The notes beneath the pieces were generated by a model, which saw only the letters and a list, made by a program, of their open reading frames with translations, was not told the DNA's origin and made no database searches. Below are positions 20,918 to 37,850 of a DNA stretch of 64,000 nt, piece after piece. How positions within the stretch are numbered: position 1 is the stretch's first letter; each line of letters begins with the position of its first letter. Origin of the DNA: Candidatus Gastranaerophilales bacterium (lineage in GTDB: Bacteria > Cyanobacteriota > Vampirovibrionia > Gastranaerophilales > Gastranaerophilaceae); assembly GCA_944326545.1 (NCBI GenBank), contig CALVEH010000005.1, positions 1 through 64,000 of the forward strand, written 5' to 3'. Both the position numbers and the translations under genes were made by a program.

Positions 20918-21334
20918 TTACGTAAGAGCTGCTTCTGCATTTTTAATAAAGTCTTTGAAAGCTGTTTTAAGTTTAGGATTTTTTAATGCAGACTCTATTG
21001 CAAATTTATTCCCGTTAGCTATTGTTACATCGTGTATTTTACCTGCTTCTGTTGGAGAATATGCTACAAAAGATATTGTTCTTGTTCTAAAGTCATTTTT
21101 ATTTGCCAGTGGTTCTATTATTATAGAAGCTTTTTTTATTGTTGAATCTTTTAACGGCTCACTTATATCAGCTTTTATCGGTTTAAATTTACCTATTTCA
21201 ACCACTTGAGCAAATGCTTCTTTTAGTTGTTTTATTGCTGCATCCATCTTTTGTGAATAGCTTGGAGCTGTAGCATTGGGGATTCTATGTCTTAATATTC
21301 TTTGCGTAGTTGTTGTTAGATTTAACTTGTTCAT
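20918..21334 (-). CDS. Hypothetical protein downstream of RelA/SpoT-like gene
   Basis: This 138-residue soluble protein is of unrecognised family. It begins MNKLNLTTTTQRILRHRI, has a helical stretch (about 28-48), then mixed beta segments (ASIIIEPLANK, RTRTISFVAYSP), and ends in a helix. GGAGAT precedes the ATG. It starts 28 nt after the stop of the synthetase-domain gene and is surely in the same transcript. An antitoxin or accessory role for that protein is only a hypothesis. Confidence 0.75.
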   Translation of the reverse strand: MNKLNLTTTTQRILRHRIPNATAPSYSQKMDAAIKQLKEAFAQVVEIGKFKPIKADISEPLKDSTIKKASIIIEPLANKNDFRTRTISFVAYSPTEAGKIHDVTIANGNKFAIESALKNPKLKTAFKDFIKNAEAALT

Positions 21335-21362
21335 TTTTATTTATCTCCGGTATTAATTGTTA

Positions 21363-22814
21363 TTATTTTTTTTCTTTCAAGCCAGTGTGTGTCGGTTTTC
21401 CGTATTTTGCTTTTAAAAGTGTAGCTGTTTCGTCAATTCTGTCTAGTGATTCAAAGCTCAAAAGATGTTCGTATTCACCTAGTCCAAATTCAGTAAGAAT
21501 TGGTTTGTCGTAAGAAAGTATTGCTTTTGATTTTGGATTTTCATTGTGTCTTATCCAAGAATACATTGCTCTTTCGTAGTCAACGTAAGCATTTTCTTTT
21601 GTAGGATTACCAAAAACTTCTTTTACAGCTTTTTCGATTCCTATTGTTTCGTAATATTTTTCCAGTTCAGGAATATTTTTGCCTATGTTTTTATTAGCCA
21701 AAATGTCATATATCAAGTGCTCAATTTGTCCTATTTTATTCAATTGTTCACTTCTTATTTGCAATTCTACCCAAACAGGTCTTACTTTGCCGTTTTTGTC
21801 TTTTATTTCATGCAATATATTCATCTGGGTTGTTGTATAACCATTTTTCTTTCTTATTGCATTTGATTGTACAAGCTCGATACCCGGGACTGATTGTTTC
21901 CACAATTTTACGGTATCTTGGCTAATGTATGGATAAATGTGTTTTGAGTGATAATTGCTAACTCTTGTTACGTTAAGCTTGCCTGATAAAATAGCTTTTG
22001 TAAGGTATTCTGCAGCTTTGTTCATGTCTGCATCTTCCGGAATAATCATTCTTAATCCGATTAAGTCTTTTATCCAGTTTACTGCTTCTTCGTAATCTTT
22101 TTTAGAAGTACCTAAAACCTTTTCAAGAACTTTGTAGTCTCTTGAATCAAGTTTTACATCTCCATCCATTATGGAAAGTTTTACGAGTTCTTTTTCTGTT
22201 TTATCCAATAATTTATACGGCTTTTGATATAAACGTTTTGCAAAAATGTTCATAACTTCGCCGTTGATTTTTTTGTCTAAGAACTCTTTTGTTATTTTGT
22301 TGTATATTGAAACAGCTTCTTTTGAAGTTGGTCTACCATTTTTACTTCTTGCTTTGAGGTATTTTCCGTAATTTTTTTCGCCCCCAAAGACTGTTTTTAT
22401 ATCTTTTATTACTCTTTCGATAGACTCTGTGCCTGATACTTCAAGCCTTTTGGCAATGCCTTTATAAAAAGAAATTTTCTTTGCAGCAAGATTTATTATT
22501 TTTGTTTGATTTGGTGTGAATGTTTTTGAACCGTTTGCTGTTGTTTTGGGTTGTAAAAGAAAGAGCAGTTCGTCATTAAATAATCCCTCTTTTTTTACAA
22601 GTTCGTAGTCTCTTAGCGTTTGAGCTTGTGTTAAGGCGTCTGCTTTTTTAGCTTTCGCAATTGATGCAGTTTCAACAGACGGAACAAAAGTATCTGTTGA
22701 AGGTGTTCTCTCAAGCGTACTAGGTGTGGTTGTTGTTTTGACTTTTTCTGTATTTTTATCTGATTCTTTTTGAGGAATACCTCTAAAAGAGATGTGTGAA
22801 AATAATTTAATCAT
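21363..22814 (-). CDS. RelA/SpoT-type nucleotidyltransferase-domain protein
   Basis: This 483-residue protein carries the motifs of the (p)ppGpp synthetase fold: GRPTSKEAVSIYNK (160-173, like the GRxKxxxSIxxK motif), DLIGLRMII (Asp250), NGYTTTQMNI (Tyr326 at the G-loop) and VELQIRSEQ (Glu350). The His normally following the G-loop Tyr is Gln330. About 75 residues separate the first two motifs, far more than usual. There is no N-terminal HD hydrolase and no TGS/ACT regulatory domain. The first 60 residues are low-complexity Thr/Ser/Pro with ISFRGIPQ. It may make alarmones, modify another target, or be inactive. Confidence 0.78.
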   Translation of the reverse strand: MIKLFSHISFRGIPQKESDKNTEKVKTTTTPSTLERTPSTDTFVPSVETASIAKAKKADALTQAQTLRDYELVKKEGLFNDELLFLLQPKTTANGSKTFTPNQTKIINLAAKKISFYKGIAKRLEVSGTESIERVIKDIKTVFGGEKNYGKYLKARSKNGRPTSKEAVSIYNKITKEFLDKKINGEVMNIFAKRLYQKPYKLLDKTEKELVKLSIMDGDVKLDSRDYKVLEKVLGTSKKDYEEAVNWIKDLIGLRMIIPEDADMNKAAEYLTKAILSGKLNVTRVSNYHSKHIYPYISQDTVKLWKQSVPGIELVQSNAIRKKNGYTTTQMNILHEIKDKNGKVRPVWVELQIRSEQLNKIGQIEHLIYDILANKNIGKNIPELEKYYETIGIEKAVKEVFGNPTKENAYVDYERAMYSWIRHNENPKSKAILSYDKPILTEFGLGEYEHLLSFESLDRIDETATLLKAKYGKPTHTGLKEKK

Positions 22815-22943: not shown

Positions 22944-22958
22944 TAAAATATTTGCATG
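22944..22958 (+). promoter_or_regulatory. Extended -10 box 12 nt before lptC start (probable leaderless mRNA)
   Basis: TGT plus TAAAAT (22944-22949) makes an extended -10 element. The ATG at 22956 is 12 nt from its first base. No Shine-Dalgarno sequence precedes the ATG. Confidence 0.55.
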
Positions 22959-23537
22959 TCTAAACGAAAGATAGCATATATAGTAATTTTACTTACGGTA
23001 GTTATAGGTTGTGCTTGGGCTTTTATTGCTGCAGGTGTTATTACAAGAAACTTTAAAAAAGAGGCGTTGCACAGTGCAGGAGAAAAGCAGGAAGTTAACG
23101 TCAAAAATTTGATAATTACCGAAACAAAAGAAGATAAAAAATATTGGGAATTATATGCTGAAAAAGGCTATTATGATAACCAAAATAAGGTTGTTATATT
23201 GTATAACGTAATTGGTAATTTTTACGATAAAGGTGAAGTCGTTCTCAGCATGGAATCTTCTATGGGAACATACAGTGAAGAAAAGAAGAAAGTTGTTCTT
23301 TACGATGATTCTTATTTTATTTATAAAGACGGTACTGATGTCAGAGCTGATCGTTTTGTTTGGCAAGGCAGCGACAAGGATATTACAGCTCAAGGTAATG
23401 TTGTAATAAGAAAAAGCGGAGAAATAAAAACTTACAGTAATGAAGCTGCTTTGAGTAATCAAATGACACAAGTGAAAATAAAAGGTCGTTCAAGAACCGA
23501 ACTATACAGCAAGGGGAATTTTGATGGAAAGATTTAA
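22956..23537 (+). CDS. lptC: LPS export protein LptC family
   Basis: LptC is the bitopic inner-membrane protein that takes LPS from LptBFG and passes it to LptA. The 193 residues have one N-terminal membrane segment (about 7-28) and a periplasmic beta-jellyroll with the LptC pattern (YWELYAEKGYYDNQNKVV, MGTYSEEKKKVVLYDD, VRADRFVW, ITAQGNVVI). The lptA-like gene overlaps its last 14 nt. Together with lpxI and lpxB nearby this supports a lipid A-bearing outer membrane. Confidence 0.85.
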   Translation: MSKRKIAYIVILLTVVIGCAWAFIAAGVITRNFKKEALHSAGEKQEVNVKNLIITETKEDKKYWELYAEKGYYDNQNKVVILYNVIGNFYDKGEVVLSMESSMGTYSEEKKKVVLYDDSYFIYKDGTDVRADRFVWQGSDKDITAQGNVVIRKSGEIKTYSNEAALSNQMTQVKIKGRSRTELYSKGNFDGKI

Positions 23538-24495
23538 AAAAGTATTTATATCATTCGGTTTATTGTTTGCATTAACCGGTATAGCTATTGCGGCTGATTT
23601 GTCTATTGAATCAGACCGACAAACTTTTAAAATGGAAGAAAATAAAGCTAAATTTGAAGGCAATGTTAGAGTAAAAATGGATGATATAAATGCAAAATCT
23701 CCAAGAGCTGAGGTTTATATTGATCCTAAAACAAAACAATTAACAGATGCTGTTATGTATGATAAACCTTATGTCGTACAAGTAAAGCAAGATAAAACAA
23801 ATGAGATTAAGGCAAATATTTTAAAAATGTCTTTGCTTAACAAAACAATAAGAGCAGAAGGTAATACCCAAACAACAGTAATTCCCAAAGATGGAATGAA
23901 ACCTACTGTTATAATTACTGCTGATACACAAGCTTATGACACAAAGACAAAAACTCTAACTGCTCACGGTGGGGTAATTATATATTATAAAGATGTTGAA
24001 ACTTTTTCTGATTCAGCTGTGGCTAATTTAAATAAATCAGGTGATTTGCAAAAAATTACGTTAACAGGTCACGGTCGCCTTAAACAAAAAGACAGCGTGA
24101 TTACAGCAGATAAATTTATTTATGATGCAGTGAAAGAAATTGCTTACGGATTAGGAAACGCTCACAGTGATGTTGATATGGACGGTACTCGTATAAACGT
24201 TTGGTCAGATCGTCAAGAGTATTACAAAGCTACAAATGTTATTCAAGCATCAGGCAAGGTTCACGTAATATACAAAGATTATGACGCAAAAGGCCCTAAA
24301 GCAACTGTTTATCCTGATCCAAAAACAAACAAACCTAACGAGATTGTGTTCATTGGACGTTCTACAATTGTTGAACAAATGCGTTCTATAGAAGCTGATA
24401 GAATTAAGATGTTTATCAATCCTAAAAATTTCTTTGCTGAAGGTAACGTAAAAACTGTTATAAGAAATATTCAAAACAAACAAAATGATATTTAA
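23524..24495 (+). CDS. lptA: LptA/OstA-family periplasmic LPS transport protein, double length
   Basis: LptA proteins form the periplasmic bridge for LPS. The 323-residue product has a signal peptide (MERFKKV...GIAIA before ADLS) and repeated beta-jellyroll motifs: FKMEENKAKFEGNVRV, TADTQAYDTKTKTLTAHGGV, ITADKFIYDAVKEIAYGLGN, IEADRIKMFINPKNFFAEGN. Typical LptA is about 185 residues. Here segments near residues 50-110 and 245-315 (AKSPRAEVYIDPKTK versus AKGPKATVYPDPKTN) look like an internal duplication. The start is ATG 23524 after AAGGGG. Confidence 0.83.
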   Translation: MERFKKVFISFGLLFALTGIAIAADLSIESDRQTFKMEENKAKFEGNVRVKMDDINAKSPRAEVYIDPKTKQLTDAVMYDKPYVVQVKQDKTNEIKANILKMSLLNKTIRAEGNTQTTVIPKDGMKPTVIITADTQAYDTKTKTLTAHGGVIIYYKDVETFSDSAVANLNKSGDLQKITLTGHGRLKQKDSVITADKFIYDAVKEIAYGLGNAHSDVDMDGTRINVWSDRQEYYKATNVIQASGKVHVIYKDYDAKGPKATVYPDPKTNKPNEIVFIGRSTIVEQMRSIEADRIKMFINPKNFFAEGNVKTVIRNIQNKQNDI

Positions 24496-31112: not shown

Positions 31113-34100
31113 ATGAGTAAAACAAAAACAAAGCGCATGGTGGCGTCTTTTTTGCTTCTGTGTGCAATGTCGGGGACGAGTGCTTTTGCAGATCCTTTAA
31201 ACTGGAAACCAGGTGATTATTTAACAAATTATATAGATTCTAAAGATGAGGTCATTTTTGATACTAGAAACGAGTTTTCTGGTCTTACCGGATCTACTAC
31301 CAGTAATATTGCTATTCCATACAGTAATGATAGTGCTATTAATGTGATATTTAAAGGTGAAGATAAAACGTTTAAGTTTTATAACAATGTTACTCCCGAT
31401 AGTGGTGCTGCGATGTACTTATTTGGTGATAAAGCGAGTGTTACCATAGAAGGGATATCAGAGTTTGTAAATAATCGAGCAGAAAAAGGCTACGGTCCAT
31501 ACAACGGTGGGGCTATATATTCCCATTTGGCTTCTATAAATTTTTTGAAGAAAGCTGTTTTTCGAGAAAATATTGCGAATGATGGTAATGGTAGAGGTCG
31601 TGGCGGTGCAATAAGCTCAAATGGAGTCACTAATTTTAATGGTGGTGTTGACTTTATTAATAATAATTCAGCTACTTTGGGCGGAGCTGTTTTTGTTGGA
31701 AAAGATGGGAAGTTAAATATTTTTGGCGGTGAAGTTTTATTTAACGGTAACACTTCTGGAGATAAAGGTGGTGCTATTTATAGCGAAGGCCAAATTTCAT
31801 TAAATTCAAATGGCGGAGCTATAACATTTGAAGGTAATAAGGCAAATAACCAGAATAATGATGTTTATTTAGCTGCTGGTTCTTTGATGTTGCAAGGTTC
31901 TAATGCTATTACTTTTAACGGTTCAATTTTAGGTGAAGCGGCTACTACAATAACTAATGAGGCTGCTAACCTTGTTTTGAATGGAGATAATAGCGACTAT
32001 CAAGGTACTTTTACTCAAGCATCAGGAAAAACAACAGTTAAAGGCAAGTTCTTTGGCGGTAGCAATATTCATCAAATTAATGGTGGAGAATTGGTTCTTG
32101 CTGCAGCAAACGCAATAGACGGTTCTAAAATTGCCATCAACAATGACGCTAATATTAACGTTGATGTTGATACCACAATGAACGGAAATATAAGCGGAAA
32201 CGGAAATATTACTCTGGATAATAAAGATGTTACGTTGACGTTGTTGAATGATCAGAGTATTTTTGACGGTACTTATTCTCAGTCATCAGGTAATTTGGTG
32301 ATAGGTGACGGTACTGTAGAAACTAAATCTTTTAGCGGAAATAATAATATTTCCGGTGGTAAAGTTACTGTAAAAAATAATGCTACTTTGTCAGGTACAA
32401 ATAACGTATCTGGTGGTACTGTCGAAGTACAAGGTGGCGGTTTGTTGAACGGTGCTAGTACGACATTGTCTGATGCAGGTAAAATTGTTTTAACAAGCAA
32501 TGCTGTATTAGATGGACTTAAAGAAATGACCAATGGCACATTAAGTGCAACAGGTGCTACTTTTAAGGGAACTTCAAATATCTCAGGCGGTAATGTTACA
32601 ATTGCAGGCGGTAGCTCTATTTCTCAAGGGGCTAGTCTAAATATTGCAGGTGGTAATGTTAACATTAACCAAGATTTGAACTTAACTAATGGAAATATTA
32701 CTGGTAATAATTCTTCAGCAACTATCACAATGAATGGTAGTTCTCTTGGAATTTCTGGTGACCAATCAGGTTTTGATGGCAACTTTAATATGACAGGCGG
32801 AACAATCAATATTGGTCAGGCCGTTGATGCTTCTGTTGATGCTGCTGATGTAACAGGAGGCAAGTTCTTCGGTGGCAACAGCAATCTGACTGACACAACT
32901 GTTAATATTTATGATAAAGGACAGATTGTTGTTGAGGGTGGCAAAGAACTTAATTTAGACAATACAACTATTAATATTTCTAACAATGGTTTGTCTGATA
33001 ATGTTGACCAGTATGGTGTTCCTATTTCAAACGGTAAAGAATCAACAATTTCAGGTACAGTTGTTGGAGACATTGATTCATCTATTATTGTAGATGGTGA
33101 GAAAACATATCTTGTTGTTAATGGAGATATGTCCGGTTATATTGGCGATTTTATCCAAAATAACGGTACTACTGAAGTAACCGGTGGTACATTCTTTGGT
33201 GGTGATAATGAAATTAAAAATGGTAATTTTATTTTCAGAGATGACGCCAAACTTTCTTCTGACGTAGAAATTATTGGTGAAGATGTTAAATTAACTATCG
33301 GTAATGGTGATAAAGGCTATACAATTACTGATGGAAACAAAGTAGCCGTAGATGGTGGTAGCTTTGTTCTTACGAATGTAAGAATGACAGAAACCATTTT
33401 TGATAATGGTACAACTGACACACCTATCACGATAAATAATTCTAATTTGAAATTAGCAGAAAAAGCCGGTTTTGCTGGCTCTGCTCATTATGAATTGGGA
33501 GCCGGACAAGGCAAAGATGCTCACATAACAATGGAAGACGGATCAGTTGCAGCTGACGGTTCTACATTGACTATAAACAAAGGCTCTGATTTAACAATAG
33601 ATGCAGACACTATGTATGAATTAGGCCATGACGGAAGCGGATATACTTATACGTCAGGCGGAAAATTCGAAATGGATTTAATCGGTGACGGTAATATATA
33701 CGTTAACAGAAAATCAAATACGACAGATGCTGATTATTCTGAAACATTAGTGTTTACATCTGATAATAGCGGTTTTGTTGGTCAATATCTTCAAAGTAAC
33801 AGAAAAACTAAATTTGAAGGCGGTAAATTCTTTAACGGACAAAACCTGATTACTCAAAACAGCTCTGTTGACTTTGATAACGGTGCTGAAATTTTAGGAC
33901 AAAACCAAATAGATGCAGGTTCTTCTTTTAACATAAACGACGCTGTTATAGGTGAAACTGATAAAACAAGAATTGTCTTAAATGGCGGTGATTTAAATAT
34001 CAATGATACGGATTTTGATTTAAATATTGGTATTAAAAACACTATTGAAGGCGGTAATATTAATAAAAAAGCTGACGGAAGTTTAACTATATCCGCTAAT

Positions 34101-37100
34101 CAGCATAATTATACTGGCAACTATAACCAGACAGGTTCCGGTACAACTACTGTTAATGCAGGCAATTCTTTCTTTGGCGGTAAGAATACAATTTCTGCTG
34201 GTATTGTTGATGTAACAGCAGGTGATTCTGTTGACAATGCTGTAATGTTAGCAGGGCAAAATATTATAGATGGTACGGGTACTATTAGAATCGGTGATTT
34301 TACCAATACTGATAACTTAAAAGATAATAAAATTACTATAAATTCAGATGCTGCAACATTGGAGTTATTTTCTGAAGAAGGTAACAATAAAAACACTGAT
34401 GTTACTTTTGCAATAGAAGGGCAAGGTTTGGTTCTTCACTCTGGTGAAGGTTCTTTAAACCTTATAAATGCAGGAGAAAACGATTTATTCGAAAACTTTG
34501 AAGGAACTTTCAAACAAGAAAATATTTCTTTGGGTGCTGATGAGAAACTTATTACTAATGTTTTTGGTAAATTCTTTAAAAATAGTGAAATAAAAAATGG
34601 TACGTTGAACTTAAAAGACGGTGCTGAACTTGTAGAAGCTTCTACAACTAAAATTGCTGCAGGTGCTAATCTGAACATCGGTACTATTGCTGATGATACA
34701 ACAGTTAATCCTGAAAAATTTGATAACAATTCCAAAGTAACTATTTCCGGTAGTATAGAAGGAAATGGTGCTGTAAATATTTCTCAAGGAAATGTGACTC
34801 TTGCTTCAACAAGCGATAATTCAGGCTTTACAGGAAAATATCACCAAACAGGCGGTACTGTTATTGCAGAAAATGGTTCAAAATTTTTTGGTGGCGGCGT
34901 TATAAGCAGCCTTATTGAGCATGGTAAATTGTTGTTCAAACAAGGAGCAAAACTTGCTGAAGGCAAAGATGTTGAATTATCAGGAAATCAGTACTTGTCA
35001 TCAGGTGATTTAAAAACTCCTGTGTTGAATTTGGATGGCAGAACAAATGCTAGATTTGACGGTAGTAACAAACTTGTATTGGATGATGAACGAGAAAGTA
35101 ATGAAGGCTTTGTCTTTACTAACGGTATTTTAGAAAATGCAATATTGCATGGCGTTCAAGATATTGTTGGCAACGGTAATGGTGTTGATGATAAAGACGC
35201 AGTAATTACTTTAAGAACAGGATCTGGTCTTGCTTCTGATGCTGTTGTATCTGTTTCAAACGGGGCTGAGCTTGTTTTTGGTACAGGTTCTGTTGCCGAA
35301 AAAGGCAGTGAAATAGATGTTAAAGAAGATGGCTATTTGGGTCTTGTTTCTCAAAATCTTGATTGGCATACAATCGTAACAGGCGATGGTTCTATAGCTG
35401 TTATGAAAGATGATAGAGAAACAGGTTCTCCAAACATAAATATATATGGTGACCAATCAGGCTTCAAAGGTGACTTTGTTCAAGCGGCAGGCCGTGTAAC
35501 TGTTAAGTCTGGAGCTACTTTATTTGGTGGAACAAATGATATTACCGGTTTTATAGATGTTGATGACAATGATCCTAACAAAATTATTAAAGAAACATCA
35601 GGTGACTTATACTTAGAAAAAGGTTCTTTGTTGGGCTCTGATATAACAGTTACAAACTTTGATAAAACAGCAAATGCAGGTGTTTCAACTCCACACGGTA
35701 GAGTTTTTGTAGAAGATAAAATCTTTACTCAAGATGGCGTTGAGCTTGTTGATATTGATGAGTTAATCAACCAAAACAACTTGTATTACAATAACATCTT
35801 AAAAGCGGATGGTACTGTTGATGTTGACTCTTTAAAACAAATCAATATCAATAATGGTGGTTTGATTCTTTCAAACGGAACTATTTTTGAAACACCAAAT
35901 GGTACAGCTGTATTTGAAAGAAAAGAAAACGGTATTATTGATATCGGTTTCAGTAACAATACAGGTGTTAACGGTGATATCTTGCTTAAGAGAGACACAA
36001 TGCTTTCTTATGGCGATAACGCATTTATCAAAGATGATTCAACTTTGACAATGGAAGACACTGCAATTTTGAATTTCATTAATGATAATGCCGTTGTTAA
36101 CTATAACCCAACAATCGTTGGCGGTGGTTCTATCTATAAAGAAGGACTTGCTGCAACAAATATTTCTTCTGCTATTGATATGACAGGGGAAGTAAATGTT
36201 AAAGAAGGAACTTTGAACTTTACAAACAAAGACAAAGTTATTTTCAAAAAAGGTGACGATTTAAGACAAACAGGTAATTTGACTGTCGGCTCTAATTCTG
36301 CAAATGCTAATTTGAGTATTGTTGCAAAAGAAACTCAATTTGACGGTAATGTAGTTGCTAATGCACAAGAAGGAACTCAGTCAGGTTTATACTTGTTAGG
36401 TAAAAATACAAATATTGGCGGAAACCTTGATGTAAATAATACAATTACTTCTATTACCGGTAATACATCTATTGGTGGTAATTGGAATATTGATGGTAAT
36501 TCGTCTCTCAATTTGATTGGTAATTACGCTAATACAATTGATGTTGCAGGTGATTTGATATTGGGTGAAAACCTAAAAGATGGCAAATTGCCTATTGCAT
36601 TTGATTATGATCCTCATCGCAATAAAATGGATACAATTATTGTTGATAGCTTTATCAATGACAAAAACTCTCCATTGTTGATTACAGGTATTAACTTTGT
36701 TACATCACCTGCTGACAGAACATTTAGTTTAGATGCAGACAGATTGATTCAACAAAGAAATCCTCAAGATCAACCATACTATGACCCGACTGCATTTTAT
36801 GCAAATACAGCAATGGGTCGTTATTACCTAACTAACGGTTCAGCTGGCGGACCTAACTTAACTGGTTCTCTTGTTTATCTCAACCCTCAACAATATAGAG
36901 GTCAGGTTGCAACAATTGCATCTTGGCAAAACCAATTGGTTGTTAACAATATGTTATTCGACCATATGGATGTTATAACAAGACAGTTAATGGATGATCA
37001 AAAAACTGCAAACAAATATGCTTCTGCTCAACCACAGTTTGCACCTTATCAATATGATTTAAAAGGTGGAAGCCTCTGGTATAAAGCTTATGGTAACTTT

Positions 37101-37850
37101 GAACGTCTTTCAATGACAAGAGGTTTGAGCGTAGGTAACAACGCATACGGTTCTTTAATTGGTGCTGACTTCCCGCTTATCAAACTTAAAAACGGATGGA
37201 ATTTAGTTCCTACAGCTTATGTTGGTTATAATGGTGCACACCAACACTTTAGAGGTGTTAGTATGTATCAAAATGGCGCTCAATTGGGCTTAATGGGTAC
37301 AGCTTATAAAGGTAACTTCATTACTTCATTATTAGCTTATGGTGGAGGCTATGCTAATGATATGTCAATGAGCGGTGAATTTGGTTCAGGTAGCGACAAT
37401 ACAGGCAACTGGTTTGCAGGTGTTGCTTCTAAAACAGCGTACAATATTCACTTGCCTGCTGATTTCATTTTCCAACCAACAATAATGGCTGCTTATAATG
37501 CCTTTGGCTCTCAAAATTGGGGTTCTGATTTTGGGGTATTGAGTATGAGTTCAGGTATGCTTAACGGTATTAACGTTGCTCCTGGATTTAACTTGATATG
37601 GCAAAAGAAAACATTTAACATCTATGCAACAGCTCAAATGGTTTATAACATTATGGGTGGTGTAGATGGCAGAGCTGGTAATATTGATCTTGGGTATGTA
37701 AGAATGAGACATTCATACTTTGAATATGGTTTGGGTGTTTCTAAAACCTTTAAAGATCGCTTTAACGGATTCTTGCAGTTCACAATCAGAAATGGCGGTA
37801 GAACAGGTATCGGATTCTCTGGCGGTTTACAAATTAAAGTTGGTAAATAA
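31113..37850 (+). CDS. Giant repeat-built autotransporter (2245 aa)
   Basis: A signal peptide ends TSAFA before Asp27. Residues 95-260 carry five Pmp-like FxxN/GGAI units (FVNNRAEKG...GGAIYS, FINNNSATLGGAVF). From about 290 to 1460 a long-period module recurs about nine times, consensus SGFxGxYxQ-x(2)-GxTxV-x(2)-GxxFFGGxNxI, like autotransporter-associated beta-strand repeats. Residues about 1930-1960 look like a helical linker, and about 1960-2245 an autotransporter barrel of alternating aromatic/Gly strands. The last residues are GGLQIKVGK, so the usual terminal Phe/Trp is absent. AAGGAGAG precedes the ATG. A surface adhesin is likely; the ligand is unknown. Confidence 0.9.
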   Translation: MSKTKTKRMVASFLLLCAMSGTSAFADPLNWKPGDYLTNYIDSKDEVIFDTRNEFSGLTGSTTSNIAIPYSNDSAINVIFKGEDKTFKFYNNVTPDSGAAMYLFGDKASVTIEGISEFVNNRAEKGYGPYNGGAIYSHLASINFLKKAVFRENIANDGNGRGRGGAISSNGVTNFNGGVDFINNNSATLGGAVFVGKDGKLNIFGGEVLFNGNTSGDKGGAIYSEGQISLNSNGGAITFEGNKANNQNNDVYLAAGSLMLQGSNAITFNGSILGEAATTITNEAANLVLNGDNSDYQGTFTQASGKTTVKGKFFGGSNIHQINGGELVLAAANAIDGSKIAINNDANINVDVDTTMNGNISGNGNITLDNKDVTLTLLNDQSIFDGTYSQSSGNLVIGDGTVETKSFSGNNNISGGKVTVKNNATLSGTNNVSGGTVEVQGGGLLNGASTTLSDAGKIVLTSNAVLDGLKEMTNGTLSATGATFKGTSNISGGNVTIAGGSSISQGASLNIAGGNVNINQDLNLTNGNITGNNSSATITMNGSSLGISGDQSGFDGNFNMTGGTINIGQAVDASVDAADVTGGKFFGGNSNLTDTTVNIYDKGQIVVEGGKELNLDNTTINISNNGLSDNVDQYGVPISNGKESTISGTVVGDIDSSIIVDGEKTYLVVNGDMSGYIGDFIQNNGTTEVTGGTFFGGDNEIKNGNFIFRDDAKLSSDVEIIGEDVKLTIGNGDKGYTITDGNKVAVDGGSFVLTNVRMTETIFDNGTTDTPITINNSNLKLAEKAGFAGSAHYELGAGQGKDAHITMEDGSVAADGSTLTINKGSDLTIDADTMYELGHDGSGYTYTSGGKFEMDLIGDGNIYVNRKSNTTDADYSETLVFTSDNSGFVGQYLQSNRKTKFEGGKFFNGQNLITQNSSVDFDNGAEILGQNQIDAGSSFNINDAVIGETDKTRIVLNGGDLNINDTDFDLNIGIKNTIEGGNINKKADGSLTISANQHNYTGNYNQTGSGTTTVNAGNSFFGGKNTISAGIVDVTAGDSVDNAVMLAGQNIIDGTGTIRIGDFTNTDNLKDNKITINSDAATLELFSEEGNNKNTDVTFAIEGQGLVLHSGEGSLNLINAGENDLFENFEGTFKQENISLGADEKLITNVFGKFFKNSEIKNGTLNLKDGAELVEASTTKIAAGANLNIGTIADDTTVNPEKFDNNSKVTISGSIEGNGAVNISQGNVTLASTSDNSGFTGKYHQTGGTVIAENGSKFFGGGVISSLIEHGKLLFKQGAKLAEGKDVELSGNQYLSSGDLKTPVLNLDGRTNARFDGSNKLVLDDERESNEGFVFTNGILENAILHGVQDIVGNGNGVDDKDAVITLRTGSGLASDAVVSVSNGAELVFGTGSVAEKGSEIDVKEDGYLGLVSQNLDWHTIVTGDGSIAVMKDDRETGSPNINIYGDQSGFKGDFVQAAGRVTVKSGATLFGGTNDITGFIDVDDNDPNKIIKETSGDLYLEKGSLLGSDITVTNFDKTANAGVSTPHGRVFVEDKIFTQDGVELVDIDELINQNNLYYNNILKADGTVDVDSLKQININNGGLILSNGTIFETPNGTAVFERKENGIIDIGFSNNTGVNGDILLKRDTMLSYGDNAFIKDDSTLTMEDTAILNFINDNAVVNYNPTIVGGGSIYKEGLAATNISSAIDMTGEVNVKEGTLNFTNKDKVIFKKGDDLRQTGNLTVGSNSANANLSIVAKETQFDGNVVANAQEGTQSGLYLLGKNTNIGGNLDVNNTITSITGNTSIGGNWNIDGNSSLNLIGNYANTIDVAGDLILGENLKDGKLPIAFDYDPHRNKMDTIIVDSFINDKNSPLLITGINFVTSPADRTFSLDADRLIQQRNPQDQPYYDPTAFYANTAMGRYYLTNGSAGGPNLTGSLVYLNPQQYRGQVATIASWQNQLVVNNMLFDHMDVITRQLMDDQKTANKYASAQPQFAPYQYDLKGGSLWYKAYGNFERLSMTRGLSVGNNAYGSLIGADFPLIKLKNGWNLVPTAYVGYNGAHQHFRGVSMYQNGAQLGLMGTAYKGNFITSLLAYGGGYANDMSMSGEFGSGSDNTGNWFAGVASKTAYNIHLPADFIFQPTIMAAYNAFGSQNWGSDFGVLSMSSGMLNGINVAPGFNLIWQKKTFNIYATAQMVYNIMGGVDGRAGNIDLGYVRMRHSYFEYGLGVSKTFKDRFNGFLQFTIRNGGRTGIGFSGGLQIKVGK

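Follow-up and report, generated by a model that had tools for sequence, protein, structure and literature searches.

We describe here a pair of adjacent genes from Candidatus Gastranaerophilales, gut bacteria related to the cyanobacteria, one encoding a 483-aa protein with a RelA/SpoT-type synthetase domain and the other a 138-aa partner (partner-A), in which the presence and the kind of the partner follow a single residue in the G-loop of the enzyme. That the partner is so strictly linked, and that the linkage depends on the G-loop residue, suggests a potentially toxic enzyme restrained by its own antidote, and we consider the chance somewhat better than even that the pair combines an ATP-dependent pyrophosphokinase whose acceptor site is altered and a dedicated inhibitor. 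The finding bears on the question of what makes a RelA/SpoT-fold enzyme yield a regulator or a poison. The window, i.e. the whole stretch of 64,000 nucleotides that was analysed, belongs to a genome of 2.19 Mb (G000), and the genomes compared with it are metagenome assemblies.

A stand-alone RelA/SpoT-type synthetase domain

The coordinates bear out the layout given in the first-pass annotation, namely two ORFs of 483 and 138 aa on one strand with 28 nt between them (Table 1). RelA_SpoT (PF04607) was the sole Pfam match above cutoff in the larger product, with 31.1 bits against a curated cutoff of 27 over residues 230-367 (32.4 bits in a search of its own genome), and the annotated absence of HD hydrolase and regulatory domains is thereby upheld. 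When a profile of diverse family members was compared with the PDB by sequence only, 17 of the 18 matches were RelA/SpoT-type proteins (best E 3.3e-7). Both genes are under strong purifying selection, with dN/dS values of 0.037 (enzyme) and 0.048 (partner) between the window and locus L033. Judged by the Pfam score, the PDB matches and the low dN/dS, the family resemblance exceeds chance, and the 483-aa protein is, on profile evidence, a stand-alone RelA/SpoT-type synthetase domain. A long Rel with HD, SYNTH, TGS and ACT domains is encoded separately in the same genome; the 483-aa enzyme is therefore not the housekeeping one. Its N-terminus is of low complexity, as first described, being rich in Ser, Thr and Pro, and no hydrophobic stretch was seen there by eye. 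The AlphaFold2 model of the enzyme, built on 9 close alignment rows only, had a mean pLDDT of 40.

Table 1. Positions, in the window, of the gene pair, its neighbours and the sequence motifs of the enzyme
Feature	Positions	Strand	Basis
RelA/SpoT-like synthetase-domain protein, Q-type, 483 aa	21363..22814	-	ORF; Pfam PF04607 above cutoff; RSH/SAS structure profile matches
Partner-A, 138 aa, undescribed family	20918..21334	-	ORF directly downstream of the enzyme, same strand
28-nt intergenic gap between enzyme and partner-A	21335..21362	-	Coordinates
Divergently oriented lptC and lptA/lptD_N-like genes next to the pair, markers of the fixed locus	22956..24495	+	Pfam LptC and LptD_N
N-terminal linear motif LERTPSTDTF, residues 34-43	22686..22715	-	Translation; L, E, R, T, P, D and F invariant in genus orthologues
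Motif 1, R156-S-K158, predicted pyrophosphate-donor ATP site	22341..22349	-	Translation; R-x-K in 69/69 aligned relatives; equals FaRel2 R64/K66
Insertion NGRPTSKEAV, residues 159-168, one clade	22311..22340	-	Missing from L061, L062, L064-L066 and most relatives
Motif 1 continuation, S169-I-Y-N-K173	22296..22310	-	Translation; equals FaRel2 S70/K74
Asp250, predicted metal-binding catalytic Asp	22065..22067	-	Conserved in 69-member alignment; equals FaRel2 D90
Arg255, predicted donor-site Arg	22050..22052	-	Invariant in 69; equals FaRel2 R95
N287-Y288 to Y296, family-specific NYxxxxxxPY, precedes the G-loop	21927..21956	-	Conserved in nearly all members
G-loop (K322 to Q330); contains Tyr326, and Gln330 replaces the canonical His	21825..21851	-	Translation
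E350-x-Q352, predicted donor-site Glu and Gln	21759..21767	-	Translation; equals FaRel2 E145/Q147

A complete ATP donor site and a changed G-loop

In FaRel2 the ATP donor site comprises R64, K66, S70, K74, D90, R95, E145 and Q147 (PMC11782079). The counterparts in the window enzyme are R156, K158, S169, K173, D250, R255, E350 and Q352, and these are invariant or nearly so among 69 relatives, in which the G-loop Tyr is also conserved. All four motif regions of the fold had been annotated at first pass; Asp250, Tyr326 and Glu350 are indeed present and conserved, but the GRxTSK stretch then read as motif 1 has to be rejected, because its Arg gives way to Lys, Val, Gln, Ile or Ala in orthologues of the genus whereas R156-x-K158 (within ARSK) is invariant. 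The stretch is part of the ten-residue insertion NGRPTSKEAV, which directly follows R156-S-K158 and is restricted to one clade. The extra residues reported between motifs 1 and 2 are real, with an Arg-to-Asp span of 94 residues against 23 in the genome's own long Rel; outside the genus, most of the relatives linked to a partner have a span of 32-35 residues. The G-loop His of the SxH motif, a hallmark of (p)ppGpp small alarmone synthetases, is not present in the window enzyme. Position 330, which equals RelSeq His312 by register with canonical sequences, carries instead the Gln already noticed in the first reading, and this Gln is invariant among Q-type members.

The complete donor site leads us to infer that the larger protein works as a pyrophosphokinase of the RelA/SpoT fold, one that would take pyrophosphate from ATP. 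The pyrophosphate would be passed to the 3'-OH of an acceptor which, since an invariant Gln occupies the place of the acceptor-side His, is probably other than the GTP or GDP of ordinary alarmone synthesis. Harm in the cytoplasm may then arise from the product, or from depletion of ATP or the acceptor. The 138-aa partner, whose gene apparently shares an operon with that of the enzyme, would act by binding to the synthetase domain, keeping the enzyme inactive until needed.

The partner follows the G-loop residue

Partner-A matched no known family in Pfam, PADLOC or PHROG searches, and its profile had no credible match in the PDB, where structures of Tis1 and ATfaRel2 are expected. Its AlphaFold2 model was weak (pLDDT 61), with a topology of one helix, three strands and two helices, and a Foldseek search with this model returned no match below E 0.1. 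By these comparisons partner-A is an undescribed family. It lies directly downstream of the enzyme in 29/29 loci of the first set and 22/40 of the second, always on the same strand and at a median distance of 27 nt (n=51 loci). The enzymes without partner-A in the 40-locus set fall into two groups, one with another small gene, partner-B, and the other partnerless. Partner-B was found at eight loci, one of them a second module in the window genome (G000:C4), and a distant relationship to partner-A is probable (hhalign probability 63%; weak cross-matches). Weak partner-A matches inside two His-type enzymes aligned to the enzyme body and were discarded as chance.

At position 330 of the 69 members, Gln went with partner-A in 51/51 cases and Asn with partner-B in 8/8, and a partner accompanied His in 0/10. 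The same pattern held out of sample at 60 loci picked by enzyme match alone (33/33, 2/2 and 0/25, respectively), a set in which L158 comes from the genome of L036 in the first set and L183 is a decayed copy. Conversely, eight loci picked by partner match alone had a Q-type enzyme upstream in five cases, were cut by a contig end in two, and lacked the enzyme in one. Over all ~134 sites, Gln occurred with partner-A in 89/89, Asn with partner-B in 10/10 and His with a partner in 0/35, but as the three G-loop types correspond roughly to three clades, the rule goes back to a small number of evolutionary changes, and these counts cannot be taken as independent trials. In a tree rooted with the genome's own long Rel, the Q- and N-types together form one clade (support 0.82) and the N-type by itself forms a clade (1.0); in this tree, support was weak both for Q alone (0.38) and for an H grouping (0.11). 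The divergence of the partners parallels that of the enzymes (Mantel r 0.82, 0/2000 permutations).

The identity of the G-loop residue has a precedent in acceptor choice, (p)ppGpp synthetases having His at this site (SxH) and the (p)ppApp synthetases of the Apk group Asn (GxN) (PMC12226406), for example N370 of Apk1 and N169 of SaEAS (PMC12691689). In toxSAS enzymes, moreover, the mechanism of neutralisation is coupled to acceptor specificity (PMC11782079). A bolder reading is that the Gln-type represents a new acceptor class of RelA/SpoT pyrophosphokinases, with products other than (p)ppGpp and (p)ppApp. The acceptor residue and a new inhibitor family would then have evolved together, and the outcome would be a lineage-wide set of enzyme-antidote modules, found alone and inside giant proteins; we put this forward tentatively, as possible but on balance doubtful. 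One bacterial family holds His, Asn and Gln versions with partners accordingly, so the link between acceptor and antidote can be tested through sister enzymes. In the library searched, alarmones and Melainabacteria do not appear together in any paper.

Comparison with known systems

The pair resembles the toxSAS systems (FaRel2/ATfaRel2, FaRel, CapRel and PhRel) in its predicted stand-alone synthetase fold without hydrolase, its apparently intact ATP donor site and its small, adjacent and dedicated partner gene in a bicistronic arrangement. A toxSAS-like pair had been proposed for this locus. Linkage strongly supports the dedicated partner in that proposal, but membership of the known toxSAS is not borne out: neither protein had a PADLOC match, the enzyme is larger (483 aa) with its long motif 1-2 span and invariant G-loop Gln, the partner lies downstream and belongs to an unrelated, undescribed family, and the locus is chromosomal and fixed in the genus. 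With the exported or polymorphic alarmone-synthetase toxins (Apk1/Tas1, MuF-phage Apk2 and EAS) the family shares the occurrence of the domain in large modular proteins, an antidote-like gene downstream and a replaced G-loop His. Unlike the Apk enzymes, which have Asn, the window enzyme has Gln, Asn being restricted here to the partner-B clade, and, in contrast to the Apk and EAS toxins, it was missing from the phage and plasmid collections searched. The donor site and motif order are also those of the (p)ppGpp small alarmone synthetases YwaC/SasA, RelP and YjbM, and the partnerless His-type relatives match YwaC and RelP best (1.3e-11); these synthetases differ from the window enzyme, which lacks the G-loop His and has a partner gene, an extra N-terminal helical region and insertions. 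The genome's own long Rel shares the SYNTH motif order, but it has HD, TGS and ACT domains as well and retains the canonical His, whereas the window enzyme has SYNTH only.

A fixed locus in two genera, with relatives found in one bacterial family

Relatives were found by single-sequence search in 79/146 genomes of the family and by profile search in 99/292 genomes of the phylum, all of the same family among the matches listed. A scan of a large species collection with short peptide patterns, which reaches close relatives only, gave eight loci, seven of them labelled Gastranaerophilales. The earlier description of the protein as lineage-specific thus holds within the phylum sample searched, where relatives occur only in the family of the host. 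The enzyme was present in 9/9 genomes of the genus with a recorded search result, and in two genera whose enzymes share 28-30% identity, all 14 loci have lptC/lptA next to the module. No relatives were found in plasmid, phage or viral-contig collections; a mobile origin is therefore not supported. A mobile toxin-antitoxin pair would not be expected to show such presence across the genus, such strong purifying selection and a constant site next to lptC.

These same features make a stable pair the main rival, and a serious one, to the enzyme-inhibitor reading, in which the larger protein would be a lineage-specific nucleotide-signalling enzyme and the partner its regulatory subunit, an activator or sensor, both in constant use and with no role as weapon or defence. 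The low dN/dS of both genes and a site common to such divergent enzymes fit this well. We nevertheless think it unlikely, because the domain brings its partner even when embedded in many different giant multidomain proteins, because the His-type enzymes do without a partner, and because an orphan partner exists. This orphan partner-A (L221:1654-2070, G013:C2) is intact, has no enzyme remnant upstream and sits in a genome with another complete pair, as expected for orphan immunity genes.

Host proteins and possible export

Proteins carrying the synthetase domain range from 320 to 4355 aa, and some are giant multidomain proteins in which peptidase, GNAT, HD and EF-hand domains are matched weakly or in part. 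Pfam reported no Rhs, PAAR, MuF or LXG domain in the proteins scanned. In the proteins at L068:8958-10745, L071:9872-11479 and L032, the synthetase domain is preceded by a hydrophobic, Gly-rich hairpin and by an EF-hand-like sequence, DxxxDGKxSxxEA. Giant ORFs of 916-2705 aa (L141-L148), a family of modular proteins, match the synthetase giants in their N-terminal sequence and have no synthetase domain. The window itself contains a further ORF of 2245 aa (31113-37850) with no Pfam match.

None of the eight domain-less giants had a partner (0/8). The partner is present across host proteins of all these sizes and missing from the domain-less giants, and therefore tracks the Q- or N-type synthetase domain whatever its carrier. 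This bears on whether the enzyme is an exported or injected effector whose small partner is a secretion chaperone escorting it to the export apparatus. Giant modular relatives, a disordered N-terminus that is rich in Ser, Thr and Pro and bears a short conserved motif, and the topology of the weak partner model would all suit an effector, as would the presence, in most genomes of the genus, of two full FHIPEP export-gate genes, the second of which, with an EscN-type ATPase, lies three genes from the N-type paralogue and partner-B in several genomes. The N-terminal sequence of the giants is, however, common to domain-bearing and domain-less forms and comes with a partner only in the former, which argues against a chaperone of the carrier domain; the window enzyme has no such N-terminal domain. 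Secretion chaperones of this type are usually acidic, but the partners are mostly basic (median pI 8.7; 9.9 for the partner in the window, a value that also counts against the enzyme-inhibitor reading). In addition, G137 has its N-type paralogue apart from the export genes, and the window pair itself adjoins lptC/lptA. Taken together, we regard an effector and its chaperone as improbable. It is very improbable that the protein is a catalytically dead RelA/SpoT fold binding nucleotide or RNA for another purpose: the large motif 1-2 insertion, the ten-residue insertion in motif 1 and the changed G-loop residue might point that way, but the donor-site residues, catalytic Asp and G-loop Tyr are conserved across extreme divergence and selection is strongly purifying.

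Export genes and N-terminal motifs in the window genome and its relatives

The window genome has a second type III-type export operon (L149:14810-19998 and L101:1-1776, G000:C4) with YscJ/FliF, a gene of no assigned function, FliH, FHIPEP and an EscN-like ATPase, as well as a FliF/FliG-like cluster on G000:C1; genomes of the genus also encode flagellins. The second module of this genome, an N-type enzyme of 337 aa with partner-B (L101:3381-4849, corresponding to G000:C4:156381-157849), is three genes from that operon, and the two are likewise close in G098 and G309 and separate in G137. VirB4 and contractile-sheath routes were considered and were absent from the genome.

Short motifs recur near the N-termini of family members. 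A universal SFxG signal was rejected, as the motif is two- to fourfold enriched near N-termini and not confined to the module, and its DTVSF version was absent from the window genome; SFxG-type motifs are a candidate lineage-specific N-terminal signal. The first ~60 residues of His-type enzymes (L106-L112, L127, L135 and L139) contain NLxPLxxDTVSFSG, and an unrelated-looking ORF (L108:6667-8025) has the related HDTVSFGA. Variants of the type SFxG, NFKG or NFKA lie near the N-termini of many partners, and the window enzyme has ISFRG.
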